From: Spiroplasma turonicum
GTDB lineage: Bacteria > Bacillota_I > Bacilli_A > Mycoplasmatales > Mycoplasmataceae
Assembly: GCF_001262715.1 (NCBI RefSeq)
Contig: NZ_CP012328.1
Span: forward strand, 496,001-560,000
Reading direction: 5' to 3'
Length of the DNA: 64,000 bases
Shown here piece after piece: positions 8,583-38,209 of the stretch (position 1 is the first letter of the stretch; each line of letters starts with the position of its first letter). Made by a program: the position numbers and the translations under genes. The notes under the pieces are model-generated. The model did no database searches, was not told the DNA's origin, and saw nothing but the letters and a program-made list of their open reading frames with translations.

Positions 8583-9785
8583 ATGAAAAAAATATTATCT
8601 ATAATATCATCTTTATCATTATGTATAAATATATCATCAACTATAATCGCATGCACCAATGATACAAAAGAAATTATTTATAAAATTCCTGAATTAAATA
8701 ATTTTTATGTTTTAGGAGATAGTCTAAGTGATGCTGGTGGTTATAAATATATTGCACAAGCTTTAATTGATAAAAATTCTAATAAAGGATACAAATTTGA
8801 TTTTAGAGGTAATTTTAAGACTGAAGATGCAATAAGAAATCAATTTCCATCATATTCTAATGGAATTACTACTGTTGAATGATTAAATAGTTATTTTGGA
8901 TTTGATGGACCTATGAAAACTGCAGGAGAATTATTGGTTGGTAAAGATAATCAAAATGGTAGAAATTATGCAGTTGGTGGTGCTAGAGCATGAGATGATA
9001 TTACATTAACTTTAAGAGAAGCAAATATTAATAAAACCAAAATGAAAGTTGATATTTTATCACAAGCTAATGCTTTAGTTAGTCAAAAAAAATTGACCGA
9101 AAATGATTTAGTATTAGTTGAAATTGGTGGTAATGATATGATGGATGTTTTATTAAGTCTTGCAGACTCATCTTTGCCAAAAAAAGATGAAATTATAAGG
9201 AAATCATCTGAAAACATATATTTAGCATTAAATACAGTATTGTCAACTGGGGCAAATGTTTTATTTATGAATTCACCTGATTTAAGACAATTGCCAACAG
9301 TTAAAGGTGGTGAATTAGATAGATATGGTAAGGTTACTGCACTTTCTAATGCAGCACCAAGTTTAGTTAATTTGCTTCACACATATGATGATGAATATCA
9401 TCAAAAAACCGATGAAGTAATTTCTAATTTAAAAGAAGTTTATAATTATAAAATATTTCAATATGATTTGTATCATAATTTTAAAAATATAATTACTAAT
9501 TATAGTGAGCTTTATTCAAAAACCTTTAATAAATCTTTAAATATAGTAAATAATTTTGGTGTTGATGGAACATATTTTAAGTCAGATGAAAAATTATTTT
9601 ATATGCAAAATTCTAATGTTAAAGGTCATGAAACTAATGAAATTGATAATTATTTTTTTATAGATCAAGTACACCCTACAAGATATGTACATCAATACGT
9701 AGCTAAAACTATATATAATTTCATTTGTGATTCTTTCTTTAAAATAAGACAAAAAATGGAAATAAAATTGGATTTAATAAACTAA
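8583..9785 (+). CDS. GDSL/SGNH-family lipase or esterase, lipoprotein
   Basis: This encodes 400 aa, starting at ATG 8583 behind AAGGAG. The lipobox IIAC puts the lipidated cysteine at residue 24, so the enzyme is predicted on the outer face of the membrane. Block I, FYVLGDSLSDAGG, carries the catalytic Ser47. Block III is VEIGGNDMMD. Block V, FIDQVHPTRYVHQYV, supplies the Asp and His of the triad. Length and order fit the SGNH hydrolases related to thermolabile hemolysin and phospholipase A. The substrate (host lipids or other esters) is unknown. A paralogue without a signal peptide lies at 14731-15831 on the other strand. A weak hairpin follows the stop. Confidence 0.85.
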
Positions 9786-14730: not shown

Positions 14731-15831
14731 TTATATTAAATCGATTTCTAAATCAATCATGTCATTCGTACTTAATCAGTATTCACATATTTTGTTATAT
14801 ATTTTTTTACCTACAAATTGGTGAACATATCTTGTTGGATGTACATTATCAATGTAAAAAAAATCATCAATATTATGATTAATAATATGTTTTTCTAATG
14901 TTAAATTTTTATTATAATATGTTTTTTTATTTTTATCATATTCTATTTTATCTAATCCATAATTGTTTTTAAAATTAACATCTTTATTAAATTTTAATTT
15001 ATATTGATAACAGTACTCATCTAAAATTGTTTTAAAATTTTTAAATAGATCAAAAGTATTAATGCTATCTTTGTATGTTATTTTTAAATCATCAATCACT
15101 TCAATTATTTTTATATAAAAATATTCAGTTATTTTATAAATTAAGTCTTGGATTTTTGGATTACTAATTATTAATTTTGATATAGCATTTAAATTACCGT
15201 TTTCATCAAGTTCTGAACCTTGTAACAATGGAATGTATTGTATGTCTGATGTTGTTGTGTATAGAACTTTTGAACCTTTTATTAAAATCATATCAAGAGA
15301 TTTTTTAATATTAATAACAGCTTTATTCAATATTTCATATGCATCATTAATATTTTTTGTATTTAAAAATATTTTAATTGAATCAAGTAAATCATTTCCA
15401 CCAATTTCAAATAATATTAAATCATTTTTAGTGATATTTTTCTGTTCTAAAAGTGATTGAGTTTGTGTAATTATATCTGCCTTTAGCATTTTATCAATTA
15501 GATTTGCTTCATTTAATGTAACTGAAATGTCTCTATATGCTCTTGCTCCACCAACAGCAAAATTCCTACCATTTAAATTATATTCGTTTATCATTAAATA
15601 ACCACTTGGTTTCATTGGACTACTAAAACCTAAATATATATTTATTCATTCAACTGCAGTCATCCCATTTGAATAAGAATAAAATTGACTTTTTTCATTT
15701 TTAAAATTACCACCAAACTTGTATTTAAATTTATTCTTCCCATTTTCTAGATCTAATAAAACTTGAACGATTGAATTATAAGCACCACCATCACTTAGAC
15801 TATTTCCTAATACATAAAAATTGTTAAACAT
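14731..15831 (-). CDS. GDSL/SGNH-family esterase without signal peptide
   Basis: This encodes 366 aa on the minus strand. Start ATG at 15831 is supported by GGAGG just upstream; an in-frame ATG at 15849 overlaps that site. TGA at 14776 and others are read as Trp. It is a clear paralogue of the lipoprotein at 8583: FYVLGNSLSDGG, FAVGGARAYRD, FEIGGNDLLD and FYIDNVHPTRYVHQFVG match block for block. It begins directly at block I, so the signal and lipobox are missing and the enzyme should stay in the cytoplasm unless exported otherwise. Block I reads G-N-S rather than G-D-S; the nucleophile Ser11 and the C-terminal Asp/His remain. Confidence 0.8.
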
Positions 15832-16006
15832 AAATCCTCCAATAAACAAATTAGTTTATAAACTTTTTTAATAATAACAAATATAAATAATTTATTTCAT
15901 TTATAAAAACATTTTAAGTATTTAAAAATATTTTACTTATTAATAGCAATAATTTTTAATGTATAATATTAAATATTAATAATCTTATAAGATATTTTAA
16001 ATTAAA

Positions 16007-19027: not shown

Positions 19028-19765
19028 ATTATTAACGATAATAAATATTTTTTATCTTCAAAAGATAAACATTTTTATATAACAACTTTAATATTATATT
19101 TTACTTATAGCTTGTTAACATTATCTATATTAACAATGAGCATAACATATAATTTATTTATAAATTTAAGTAGTGAAAAATCAAATTTAAATACAGTTCA
19201 ACTTTGATTAAAATTAAGTTTATTTATTATGTGAATTGCATTTATGAGTTTTTTAATGCGACTATTTGCACCAAAAAATTTTAAATACTTATTTTGATTT
19301 CATAATTTATTATTTTTTATATCAATATATTGAGAATATCTGTATTGAAAAAATAAAAATTATAAACTAAAAGTTTTTGATAAAACTAGTTTCAATTTTA
19401 TTGAAAACACATTATTACTAATAAATATTTTTTATTTAATAAACTCAACTATTTTTATATATACTGATTTAAAAAGTTATGGAAATGGATTAATGGGGGA
19501 CTTAATCAATTGAGTTGTTAATAAAAGCGATTTAAATTATTGATTATCATTTTTATTAATAATTTTTAACTTTTATTTGCTAATAACTTCTATTATGTTT
19601 ATGTTTTTTATAATGTTATTTAAAATTGATGTTAATCTTTTAGAAAGAAAATATATTTATAAAATGGGATTAATTATAAGTGGTTTATTTTCATTTACAT
19701 TTATTTTAAATAAGAAATATATTTTTAATGAAAATCAAAAAAATAATAATGAAAGGGTTAGTTAA
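19028..19765 (+). CDS. Multi-pass membrane protein linked to the galactanase gene; unusual start
   Basis: The frame is open from just after a TAA at 19025, giving about 245 aa if it starts at ATT 19028 or 19031. A GAGG ribosome binding site (19017-19020) is well placed for these. The first conventional starts (TTG 19112, ATG 19136) cut into the first hydrophobic helix and have no ribosome binding site. Code 4 allows ATT initiation, so I prefer it, but the start is uncertain. About five or six hydrophobic segments are present with many TGA-Trp codons. No known family was recognised. The stop codon is 4 bases before the GH53 start, so the two are co-translated; a role in anchoring, secretion or regulation of that enzyme is inference. 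Confidence 0.6.
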
Positions 19766-19769
19766 ACTT

Positions 19770-21947
19770 ATGAAGAATAATAAAATACTTATAATATGTT
19801 TTTCAATCTTTGCAACTATCTCTATAGTCATTTCTACATTTATCGCAATGTTTGTGTTAAATAAAAAAGATGACCAAAATTATTGATATAATAATTTCTA
19901 TTCTAATATAAAAATTAATAATAGTTCTTTTATTAAAGGAGCTGATGTTTCATCTTATGCAGAAGTTGTTGAACAAATGAATCATAAATCCTTTGAAGAG
20001 TTAAGTGATGATAATCAAAAAATCTATATTGATGATGATGGAGAATACAAAAACCTTTTTGAAATATTAGCTAAAAATAATTTTAATTCAATTAGATTAA
20101 GATTGTGAAATAATCCATATGATGATAAAGGTAATACATATGGTGGGGGTCACAATGATTTAGAAACAGATATTTGAATTACTAATCAAGCGAAAAAATT
20201 TAATATTAAAAATGTCTTATTAGATTTTCATTTTTCAGATTTTTGAGCAGATCCAAACAGACAATATCTTCCAAAAGAATGAGAGAATTATTCTACAAAT
20301 GAACTTAAGAATGTAATTGAAAAATATACTTATAATACATTAAAAACTTTTTATCAAAAGACAGGAATTGTTCCTAAAACAACACAATTGGGAAATGAAA
20401 TTACTAGAGGTGCATTTTGATCATTAAAAAATAACTCAAAATCAGGATATAAAGATGTTTTACAAACAGCAGATTACTTAAATTATGCAGCATCTGGTGT
20501 AAAAACATTTGAGTCAGAATTTAATGTAAAAACAGATTTAGCAATACATATTGATGGTTCACCATCAATTACTAGATGAATGGATACTTTAGATGAGTAT
20601 TTAATTAAAGGTAAAAATGTAGATTGAGTAGATTCAGTTGGTATAACATATTATCCTGACTGAAATGGTAATAATTTAAAGCTATATAATTTAATGGATT
20701 CAATTAAAACTAAATATAATTTAAAATCTTATGTTTCAGAATATGCTGTTCCTTATACTTATGAACAAACTAATTTGGTTGTAGATATAAGTTCGAGTCA
20801 AAATGGATCAGGAGAATTAGCGAACCCCTCACCAGATTCACAAATAAAATTAACTAGTTCTGTTATGGAAACAATTAGTAAAGCAAATCCTGATGATGAA
20901 ACAGGTTTTTATTGATGAGAACCAGCTTGAATATTTAGTGGTAAATCAGGTTGGTCTACAAGAGAAGGAATTTATTATTCTGAACCAAATAATGAAAGTA
21001 ATCAAAAGTCATTCATGGTAGGAAATAGTTGATGAAACAGAGGAATTTTTGATAAAAATAAAGAAGTATTACCAGTGGTCGAAGTTGTAAAAAACTTTTC
21101 AAGAATTGTAAAAACTGATGACTATGTAGTTGATGCTAATAATTTTTATAATGAAAAATACTTAGATTATTTTAATAATGATCCAATTTTTAATAACACA
21201 AAGTTAATTGGAGATTATTGAAAAACTAGAAAAAACTTAATTAATTACATAAGGGATACTAATATTATTTTAAATAGCAATAATAATATTGTTGAAGAAA
21301 CAGAAAGGGAGTTTTTAAGCAAAAATCCGTTAATACTTAAATCACAAATAAAATTTATTAATTTTGAATTTGATGAAATAACAAATGAAGGTTCTTTACA
21401 ATTAGATTTATCTAAAAATAATGTTTATTATAAAATCGATAATAATATTACAATAAAAATTAAAATAATAACTAAATATTTAGATATCATTGACTTTACT
21501 AATAAGAGTTCAACAAATAAGAAACATACAATAGACATAAAAAATAGTGATACAAATTGATTAAACAAAATTTATAACTCAATTAGTAAAGACAATATAT
21601 TTTTAGATAAGTTAAAAAATACGATACTTGATAAATATAATTATCAAAGAGATTATTATTTTAAAAATGATGCACCCGCATTTTGAGATAAAGAATACAA
21701 TATTGATAGATGATTAAGACCTTGAATCCAAAAAAATGATGAAAAAATAGATATAATGATGTTCAATAATATTGTTGAATATGAAACATTAAATGATATT
21801 TGTGAGTGAAGAGACAATTTAACTATTGGCGAATATGATTTAATTATTTATTTTACTAATGATGTTAATTTTGAATTATATGGTCATGAAAATTGAAAAT
21901 ATTTATCAACAGTAGCAATATCAGTTAGTGTAAATGTCTCTAGTTAA
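19770..21947 (+). CDS. Membrane-anchored GH53 endo-beta-1,4-galactanase
   Basis: This encodes 725 aa. The N-terminal helix (residues 6-30, no lipobox Cys) should tether it outside the cell. Residues 55-460 match family GH53 arabinogalactan endo-1,4-beta-galactosidases: KGADVSS, then NNFNSIRLRLWNNPYDDKG, YGGGHNDL, LLDFHFSDFWADP, TQLGNE with acid/base Glu210, and YVSEYAVPYT with nucleophile Glu324. GH53 enzymes cut beta-1,4-galactan side chains of plant pectin. The last 260 residues are an Asn/Asp/Lys-rich extension not needed by known GH53 catalytic domains, perhaps a cell-surface or binding module. ATG 19770 lies 4 bases after the upstream stop, with GAAAGGG before it. A terminator lies 130 bases downstream. 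Confidence 0.9.
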
Positions 21948-22149: not shown

Positions 22150-22372
22150 TTATGAAGGGAAACAAAATTATGAACTGAAGAAATTCATGTATGTATTCTA
22201 AGTTGAATATTAAACGTAATGCCACTAGCATTATGATTTTGTCATACATAAGTTCATATAAATTGTTGAAACAATAAAAGTAAATATAAGCAAAGAGTAG
22301 CTATATAAATAATTTAATTTATTAATTAAAACTCCTGCTTGTGAATAAGTTTCACAAGCAGGAGTTTTTCTT
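22150..22372 (+). ncRNA. Probable structured non-coding RNA
   Basis: Three nested helices are visible: tatgaact (22169-22176) with agttcata (22251-22258); atgtatg (22187-22193) with catacat (22243-22249); and cgtaatgc (22215-22222) with gcattatg (22228-22235) closed by the loop cacta. A small hairpin attgt/acaat (22262-22275) follows. The RNA ends in an exceptionally strong terminator, a 16-bp perfect stem with a 5-base loop and T-run (22330-22370). No gene follows on this strand; the next gene is on the minus strand. A TAATAT-like -10 near 22137 would start it around 22150. It matches no riboswitch, tmRNA, SRP or RNase P signature I know. A 35-codon ORF (22170-22277) overlaps it. Confidence 0.5.
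22330..22370 (+). terminator. Very strong Rho-independent terminator (end of ncRNA)
   Basis: The stem aactcctgcttgtgaa/ttcacaagcaggagtt is 16 bp without mismatch, with loop taagt, followed by ttttt. It is among the most GC-rich hairpins in the window. Confidence 0.9.
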
Positions 22373-34828: not shown

Positions 34829-36739
34829 ATGAAAAAAACTAATTATGCAGTTGAAGCTCAAAGGTTCTTAGATGCAGTTGGTGGTAAAGATAATGTACAA
34901 TCATATTTACATTGTGTTACAAGATTAAGATTTAATGTTATAGATAAAGAAAAAGTAGATATTAAGGCTATAAAAGAATCTCCAATTGCAAAAGGTACTA
35001 ATTGAACACAAAATCAATTACAAATAATTTTAGGAACTGGAGTTGTTGAATCTGTTTATACTCAATTAGAAAAAATATATAATTATAGTGAAAAAATTGA
35101 ATCAAATAAATCTAATAATAATGAAAGTTTTGAGGATTTTAAATTAAAAGCAAAAGCAAATAAAGAAGCAATTAGAAATAAAGGTGGAAAATTTGCTTGA
35201 ATTCAATTAAGTATGAAAACTTTGGGAGATATATTCTTACCGATTATACCTGCGATTGTTGCTGCAGGGCTTGCAATGGGTGTAGCTGCAACTATACAAA
35301 TGTTAGTTAAATATGATAGTGATTCACTTTTAGGTAAAATTTTAGACATTATCACAAAAACAGCTTTTAGCTCATTAGCAGTATTAGTTTGTTGATCTAC
35401 TGTAAAAAGATTCGGTGGCAGTCCTGTTATTGGTATAATAATTGGATTAATGTTAATTAGTCCATTGTTACCTGATAAAGGTTCAATTGCAACCTGAGAA
35501 GCACAAGAACAATTTAGAGAATCATTTGATGCTACAAAATGAGGTACAAGTGATTGAAAACAAGTGTGAAAAGACGCAACTGGTTTAAGCGTATTAGAAA
35601 ATCCAGTCACACCAATTAAATTATGAATAATACCAATTACTGGTTATCAAGGCTCAGTTTTACCAGCTTTAGTAATAGGAATAGGAGCTGCATATTTAGA
35701 AAAATGAATTAAAAGTTGAATGCCAAATGCTGTAAATATTATTTTTACTCCGTTCTTAACAATTGTAATTTCATTATTGGTTGCATTATTTGCTTTTGGA
35801 CCAATATTATTGATGGTTGAAAAAGGTATATTAATAGCAACTCAGGCAATATTGAAGTTACCAGTTGGTATTGGGACTGCTTTAATTGCTGGTGCTTTAC
35901 AAGCAATAGTAATAACTGGATGTCATCAAATTCTTCAAGGATTAGAAATGCAATTAGTTATCCAAGGAAATGTACCAGATTCAAATGGTGCAATAAGTGG
36001 TTCAATTTTTAACTCATTATGAACTGCATCAATAATTTCTCAAGGTGGAGCGGCTATGGCAGTAGCGTTTAAAGCGAAATCGAAAAAAGAAAAAAACTTA
36101 TCGATTCCATCAGCTGCTTCTACATTTTTTGGAATAACTGAACCAGCAATTTTTGGTGTTAATTTACCAAGAGTGAAACCATTTATCTTTGGATTAGTTG
36201 GAGGATTTGCAGGAGGTTTATTTGCTGGTATATTTAATGTAACTTGTAGGGGTATGGGAGTTACTGTTTTACCTGGTTTACTCCTTTACACTAATAATAT
36301 TAGAAATTTATTACTAATTATTGTAGTTAATTTATTATCATTTGGGGTAGCTTTTGCATTAACATTCTTCTTATATTTCGAGGCTGGGAAAAAAGTTACA
36401 CAAAAAAATTTAGATAAATTTAAAATTAAAATTGATCAATTTAAGGAAAAATTGTCTAATTTTAAATCAAATTTACAAGTTAAAGATTATGAAAATAAGT
36501 TAAAAAGATTAGAAAACGGACTAGTTCGATTAAACAAAAAAGAAGAGAAGCTTAATAAAAACAAAGAAAAATATGATAATTTCTTGGTAGAATTAAAAGA
36601 AACAAGAGAAAGAGAAAAACAAGAACAAATTAAATTGAAAGAAGACAAGAAAAAACATAAAGAAATGATATTAAATTTAAAAAAAGATCCTGAAAAATGA
36701 AAAGCATATAAACAAGATATAAAGAAAAAAAACAGTTAG
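34829..36739 (+). CDS. scrA: PTS sucrose-type EIIBC component with C-terminal coiled-coil tail
   Basis: This encodes 636 aa from ATG 34829 (AGAAAGG). Residues 1-85 form the EIIB domain, whose phosphorylated cysteine is in YLHCVTRLRF (Cys29). About 115-530 form the EIIC membrane channel of the glucose/sucrose superfamily, with the substrate motif FFGITEPAIFGVNLPRVKPF. It should import and phosphorylate sucrose or a related disaccharide, judged mainly by the hydrolase and fructokinase downstream. No EIIA domain is attached; EIIA must come from another protein. Instead, the last 100 residues (NLDKFKIKIDQFKEKL onward) are a highly charged Lys/Glu coiled coil, which is unusual. Confidence 0.88.
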
Positions 36740-36757
36740 TCATAGGAGTAAAAAAAT

Positions 36758-38209
36758 ATGAAATGAGAAAAACACAGTTTAATAAGTGAAGATAATTTAG
36801 AGTTTTTTAAAGAATGACATGAAAAAAAAGAAAGTGATTGATATAATAACCAATTCCATTTATCTGGTTATTGCGGTTCAATTAATGATCCGAATGGTTT
36901 AGTATTTTTCGATAATAAATACTATATATTTATGCAAAATTGTCCATTTAGTATTCAACATTATAATAAATCTTGAGCTTTATTTACAACTCATGACTTC
37001 ATTAACTACAATTATGAAGGAATAACTTTAACTCCATCAAATCAATATGATAAGGATGGTGTGTTTTCAGGAAGTGCAAGAGTAAACAATAAAGGAGAAA
37101 TGGAAATTTATTATACTGGAAATATTAAATATAATGCAATTGATAGAAATAGTTATACTTTAAAAGCGTTTATTGATTTAAAAAATAAATTAGTTAGCAA
37201 AGAATTGCTATTTGAATGTGATAAAACAAAATACACAGGTCATTTTAGAGATCCAATTGTTTTTGAAAAAAATAATAAATTATTTATGCTAAATGGAGCC
37301 CAAACACTAGATAAAAAAGGTACATTAACAGTTCATGAATTTGTTAATGATAAATGAGTTTTCAAAAAAGAAGTAGAATTAGATAAAGACTTTGAACAAA
37401 ATTCATATATGGTTGAATGTCCAAATTATTTAAAAATAGATAATTCAGAATTTGTTTTTGCTTGTTTTGAACAAGATGCACCATTAAGTGAAGGTAGTCA
37501 TTTTGTAAAGTATAGAAAAGTTGTCATTGATGAAAATGCAAACTTTAATTTTAAAACTGACCTTTTAAAAATTGATTTAGGTTTCGATTTCTATGCCCCA
37601 CAGGTATTTTCAAATGTTAAAGATAGAACAATAATGTTGGGTTGATTAGGAAATTCAAAATCTAATCCTTTTCCAAAGGAATTAACAACTTGAAGTAATA
37701 ACTTAACTTCTCCAAGAGTTCTTACAGAGAAAAACAATAGATTGTATCAAAATCCTATAGTTGAACTAGAAAACTTAAGAGTTAAAGAAATTACAAAATC
37801 AGAAAACGATTATTTATATGAAAACGGAATAGTCGAATTAGTTTGTGATGAAATAAATAATCAAGATTTTGAAATTGAAATTAAAAGTGGATCTAAAAAC
37901 ATAAAACTATCTAATATAAATAAAAAATTTATTATTGATAGATCAAATATGGATTATAATAGTGTTGAAGATTTACCACCAGTAATAAATTTTGATAATT
38001 TAAGTATTGATAATATTAGAATACTTATCGATAGAAGTTGTATGGAAATATTTATTAATAACGGTGAACATGCAATCTCTCTTAGAACTTTCATTTTAAA
38101 TCATAATACTATAAAAACTAATTTAAATAATTCTAAGGTTTATCAATTAAAAGGTTATAATATAAATTGAAATAACACAATTTTCAAAAATATTACAAAG
38201 GAAAAATAA
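36758..38209 (+). CDS. scrB: Sucrose-6-phosphate hydrolase (GH32)
   Basis: This encodes 483 aa, normal for the family; ATG 36758 follows TAGGAG. GH32 motifs are in order: FHLSGYCGSINDPNGL with the nucleophile Asp in NDPNG, then FSGSARV, HFRDP with the transition-state Asp, and VECPNYLK with the acid/base Glu. The C-terminal beta-sandwich ends near DNIRILIDRSCMEIFINNGE, also typical. It cleaves sucrose-6-phosphate into glucose-6-phosphate and fructose in the cytoplasm. The first motif reads YCGSINDPNG rather than the usual P-x-x-G-W-x-N-D-P-N-G, so a neighbouring tryptophan is replaced. It overlaps the operon logic of the PTS gene before and the kinase after. Confidence 0.92.

Follow-up and report, generated by a model that had tools for sequence, protein, structure and literature searches.

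In enzymes of family GH53, the acid/base Glu lies on strand 4 and the nucleophile Glu on strand 7, and most, but not all, solved structures have a calcium site or a disulphide that links loops 7 and 8. In gan-type systems for galactan utilisation, the GH53 enzyme is accompanied by a transporter, a GH42 enzyme and a pathway of galactose catabolism, either through GalK or through LacABCD. For IaGal, the GH53 enzyme of Ignisphaera aggregans, Trp115 and Trp338 are the platforms of the −2 and −3 subsites, and the acid/base and nucleophile Glu residues have also been defined (PMC8447715). Here we describe a GH53 gene of the Mollicute Spiroplasma turonicum, which we consider likely to encode an exported, membrane-tethered endo-β-1,4-galactanase in a two-gene unit with a small membrane partner.

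We analysed a stretch of 64,000 nucleotides (the window) from the S. turonicum genome, a single contig of 1,261,374 bp; strain Tab4c was isolated from a Haematopota horse fly (PMC4653801). The reading frames of the window are valid under genetic code 4, the Mollicute code, and the coordinates given in an initial annotation of this DNA are correct under that code. The GH53 gene spans 19770–21947 on the plus strand (725 amino acids). As first described, its ATG lies 4 bases past the stop codon of a small membrane protein gene on the same strand (19028–19765; 245 amino acids, about six predicted membrane helices, likely ATT start). Codon use in the GH53 ORF, with 21 TGA and one TGG codon for Trp and a GC3 of 0.11, resembles that of neighbouring genes. 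Upstream of the pair is a P-type ATPase gene, and downstream a 154-amino-acid ORF on the opposite strand is followed by an Opp-type permease operon. A Pfam search of the flanking genes in the window found no sugar transporter next to the GH53 gene, consistent with the initial annotation, which had listed no adjacent galactoside transporter. The intergenic stretch at 22150–22370 ends in a strong terminator-like hairpin (22328–22368, 18 pairs) and may represent a small RNA or leader; an Rfam search of the region including this stretch gave no real match.

The GH53 protein matches PF07745 over residues 55–439 (E = 2.6e-72; 244 bits against a cut-off of 24; profile positions 1–339 of 340), and all matches in a PDB sequence search were galactanases, the best being 7osk (E = 6.5e-41). 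These residues form the catalytic (β/α)8 domain (19932–21086, plus strand), as delimited by Pfam, an AlphaFold2 model and Foldseek. The model drew on 29 GH53 homologues and is of high confidence across most of the catalytic domain; Foldseek matches 1–13 to this domain were all GH53 structures (TMt 0.80–0.86; 0.86 for 7osk and 0.82 for 2gft). Glu210, in an NE motif (codon 20397–20399), aligns with the acid/base Glu165 of both BlGal from Bacillus licheniformis and IaGal, and Glu324 (codon 20739–20741) with the nucleophile, Glu263 in BlGal and Glu266 in IaGal. Trp159 (20244–20246) and Trp395 (20952–20954) map to IaGal Trp115 and Trp338 at the −2 and −3 platform positions. All four residues, together with Asn209, are invariant across 14 of 14 aligned Mollicute GH53s. 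The loop at residues 335–347 has low model confidence, and the protein contains only two Cys in total. The ORF is therefore a full-length GH53 gene with an intact catalytic Glu pair and both Trp platforms; a chance ORF or frame artefact was ruled out by the profile match, the fold and the conservation. The profile search and structure prediction proposed in the initial annotation thus bear out its claims of membership of GH53 and of the integrity of both catalytic Glu residues, and place the catalytic domain among solved galactanases. The TIM-barrel would cut β-1,4-galactan side chains of pectin internally by a retaining double displacement, with Glu210 as acid/base and Glu324 as nucleophile, and would probably release galacto-oligosaccharides of 2–4 units.

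Across the order, a profile search detected GH53 in 15 of 320 genomes, 14 of them above the cut-off, and in 8 of 50 genera, in line with the earlier expectation that such hydrolases are rare in Mollicutes. In G161 the copy is interrupted by TAA/TAG stops, which shows that this genome can do without the gene; G078 has a weak partial match below the cut-off. Usable copies numbered 14 from 12 genomes, G300 alone having three copies. In a tree with 32 other GH53s, from Lachnospiraceae, Paenibacillus, Coprobacillus and others, the 14 Mollicute catalytic domains form one clade with 100/100 support, separated by a long branch (0.74 + 0.41 changes per column). This single clade argues against contamination, and against a stray gene recently acquired from the non-Mollicute lineages sampled; the neighbour-like codon use does not support these explanations either. 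One clade with a shared C-terminal module looks like a Mollicute variant of single origin, and because its spread is patchy, we infer that the gene was lost or transferred several times. The enzyme family is known, and the gene represents a genuine variant of it that is conserved in Mollicutes. Databases likely annotate the Mollicute genes as GH53 proteins, so that it would be wrong to speak of an unknown gene; in the open literature, we found no paper on Spiroplasma with GH53 or galactanase or on Mycoplasma with glycosyl hydrolase 53, and searchable papers contained no description of the Mollicute lineage, its tail domain or its benefit to the bacterium. Two carriers have further features at their loci. 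Next to the broken, decaying copy in G161 lies a second glycosidase, a lipoprotein-like ORF that has a GH123-like domain (L033, 9264–13178, minus strand), and one of the three GH53 genes of G300, a small genome that is 64% complete, lies beside a BspA-type LRR protein (L032, L034 and L035).

Outside the catalytic domain, the protein begins with a hydrophobic segment (19785–19859, plus strand), a predicted membrane anchor with no lipobox Cys, as is the rule for GH53 N-termini in the genus of the window. A lipobox-like Cys is present in five GH53 orthologues (G204, G205, G232, G201 and G233), and the lipoprotein nature of these five supports an exported location. Both features favour the anchoring proposed in the initial annotation, as a prediction: the N-terminal helix would tether the enzyme to the cell surface. 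At the other end, a module of unassigned fold (21087–21944, plus strand) is specific to Mollicute GH53s and conserved in 13 of them. It measures about 286 amino acids in the window protein and about 280–310 across the 13 complete Mollicute GH53s, and it has no match in Pfam or the PDB. The initial annotation was right that this extension has no known fold, but its length of 260 amino acids was too short. A profile of the module, run against 317 genomes, matched strongly nowhere but in GH53 genes and contig fragments of them; a few further matches were weak and partial. In the AlphaFold2 model the module has a pLDDT below 50, because only the window sequence covered it in the alignment. Its role may lie in binding the substrate or in display at the surface.

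The membrane protein belongs to a family of four (window, G180, G181 and G187), present in 4 of 317 genomes; a search of these genomes with the four-member profile found no further full-length members, and the protein had no match in Pfam, NCBIfam or PDB sequences. Although the window protein is only 19–33% identical to the other three, comparison of two independent halves of the family by hhalign (window and G187 against G180 and G181) gave a probability of 92% (P = 5.4e-7). A single-sequence model has six long helices, at low confidence. Because the frame opens only at 19028, we place the start of the gene at one of two ATT codons (19028 or 19031), an unusual start preceded by a GAGGGG Shine–Dalgarno-like stretch; in G181, ATG is the start codon of the homologue. 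As an observation on context, GDSL lipase/acylhydrolase paralogues occur twice in the window (14731–15849, minus strand; 8583–9785, plus strand), and a relative of these adjoins the orphan membrane gene in L037 (7792–9015), which hints at a partly shared context.

Is the membrane gene a partner of GH53 or a mere neighbour? No GH53 carrier outside the genus has it next to the enzyme gene, G187 has it but no GH53, and the window protein has low identity to the other members, all of which would fit a neighbour with no functional role. Within the Apis-clade genus, however, the gene lies directly upstream of GH53 in all three carriers (window, G180 and G181), although the window has other flanking genes than G180 and G181, which share some with each other, and it is missing from the other 16 of the 20 genomes; the chance of this co-occurrence, computed by hand, is 4/1140 = 0.0035. 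The reading frames also overlap or nearly overlap, with an 8-base overlap, 4 bases (window) and 22 bases in the three loci. We therefore consider a mere neighbour rather unlikely. Adjacency within the genus and absence beside GH53 beyond it indicate that the pair is genuine in the genus and does not occur outside it. The survey of relatives suggested by the initial annotation accordingly recovered the linkage in G180 and G181, and its idea of a dedicated membrane partner holds for the genus, in varied contexts, but not beyond it, nor for G187. In the account that we favour, GH53 would be expressed from the two-gene unit, with the multi-pass membrane protein probably helping to anchor, export or present it.

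The initial annotation had also read the enzyme as a sign of feeding on galactan, a claim that fared less well. No galactokinase, LacD or GH2 was found in any GH53 carrier searched, and when 14 genomes were searched for GH42, all matches were weak and fell inside GH1 genes; those in the S. turonicum genome and G180 were rejected on this ground. The S. turonicum genome has no LacB at E 1e-36 and no LacAB, with a single RpiB-like isomerase, and, compared with a gan-type system, has no adjacent transporter or GH42 and no GalK, LacD or LacB. Among the routes searched, it has no recognised one for the galactose product; enzymes that are non-homologous or have diverged far would escape searches of this kind, and a class II aldolase could take the place of LacD. 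Of 317 genomes, 40 have LacB; G180 and G181 are the only GH53 carriers among them, and LacB is not enriched in carriers. G181 encodes LacA, LacB, a ROK kinase, lactose-type IIBC, GH1 and IIA-Lac; in L130 (10305–19501) and L131, the LacAB-ROK genes precede a set of lactose-type PTS IIBC, GH1 and IIA-Lac that is repeated. The best model for its GH1 is 6-phospho-β-galactosidase, at 497 bits and below the cut-off of 610. In G180, a ROK-like ORF and genes of a sugar ABC transporter come after LacAB. Judging from these gene sets, a galactoside-6-phosphate route could use the GH53 product in one or two relatives. The S. turonicum genome itself has six GH1 genes, most of them beside β-glucoside-type PTS genes; these GH1s score far below the lacG cut-off. 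The window also has, at 34829–38209, a PTS EIIBC gene and, after it, a GH32 gene of the sucrose-6-phosphate-hydrolase type, which would suit a cell that uses plant sugars such as nectar. A sugar-gene cluster of the genome includes a mannosylglycerate-hydrolase-like gene (L127, 15169–17808, minus strand; 488 bits, below the cut-off).

How, then, would the bacterium benefit? Growth on galactan from flowers or from the insect's plant food would be in keeping with the lactose-type genes of G181, the LacAB and ABC transporter genes of G180, and the GH1–PTS and EIIBC–GH32 genes of S. turonicum. It accords poorly with the missing galactose enzymes and the low-scoring GH1s of S. turonicum, and with carriers in genus g46 and in G232 in which no GH1 was found at all. 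We regard this explanation as possible but doubtful, and direct nutrition as less well supported than the initial annotation held. Alternatively, the enzyme may open or thin pectic material, for access, for colonisation or to the benefit of the insect or other microbes, in a cell that does not use the galactose products. The enzyme is kept intact even where the genome has no galactose route that could be recognised, and it is predicted to be tethered at the surface; both speak for such a role, although a benefit without carbon gain is indirect; we take it as a serious possibility that falls short of probable. A shift of the whole lineage to another β-galactan, such as a host or self glycan, could explain the long Mollicute branch, the added conserved C-terminal module and the carriers that have no recognised galactose route. 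The invariant catalytic Glu and −2/−3 Trp galactan platforms, and top structural neighbours that are all β-1,4-galactanases, make such a shift improbable. Taken furthest, the data could be read as a Mollicute-specific surface galactanase complex, in which GH53 with a new C-terminal fold is presented by the membrane protein and serves colonisation or the host, not the cell's own carbon supply, in wall-less insect symbionts unable to catabolise galactose; as a whole, we think this unlikely. The tethered galactanase with its membrane partner would probably act in the gut of a fly that takes plant fluids, with plant-derived food as the likely source of substrate, and an association with plants is plausible.

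These findings indicate that a plant-cell-wall enzyme has been retained, as one distinct lineage, by some insect-associated bacteria that lack a wall; the lineage occurs in several of the order's families, in genomes of very small size. What such symbionts do with polysaccharides that they seem unable to ferment can be tested on this case, which also provides an uncharacterised protein module and, in the two-gene unit, a means of testing what a small membrane partner does.

Compared with described GH53 enzymes, the Mollicute protein has the same TIM-barrel and Glu pair as BlGal (1r8l, 2gft and 1ur0; TMt of the model about 0.82) at about 26% identity, but is predicted to be membrane-anchored and has the C-terminal module, and the S. 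turonicum genome, unlike the BlGal system, has no GH42 or galactokinase. IaGal (7osk) is the closest match in the PDB, and its Trp platforms align with Trp159 and Trp395; its C-terminal domains are PF07532 and PF09985 (PMC8447715), whereas the Mollicute module matches no Pfam family. The GH53s of Lachnospiraceae, Paenibacillus and Coprobacillus (L038–L117) share the catalytic domain at 21–34% identity, yet stand across the 100/100 branch from the Mollicute copies.
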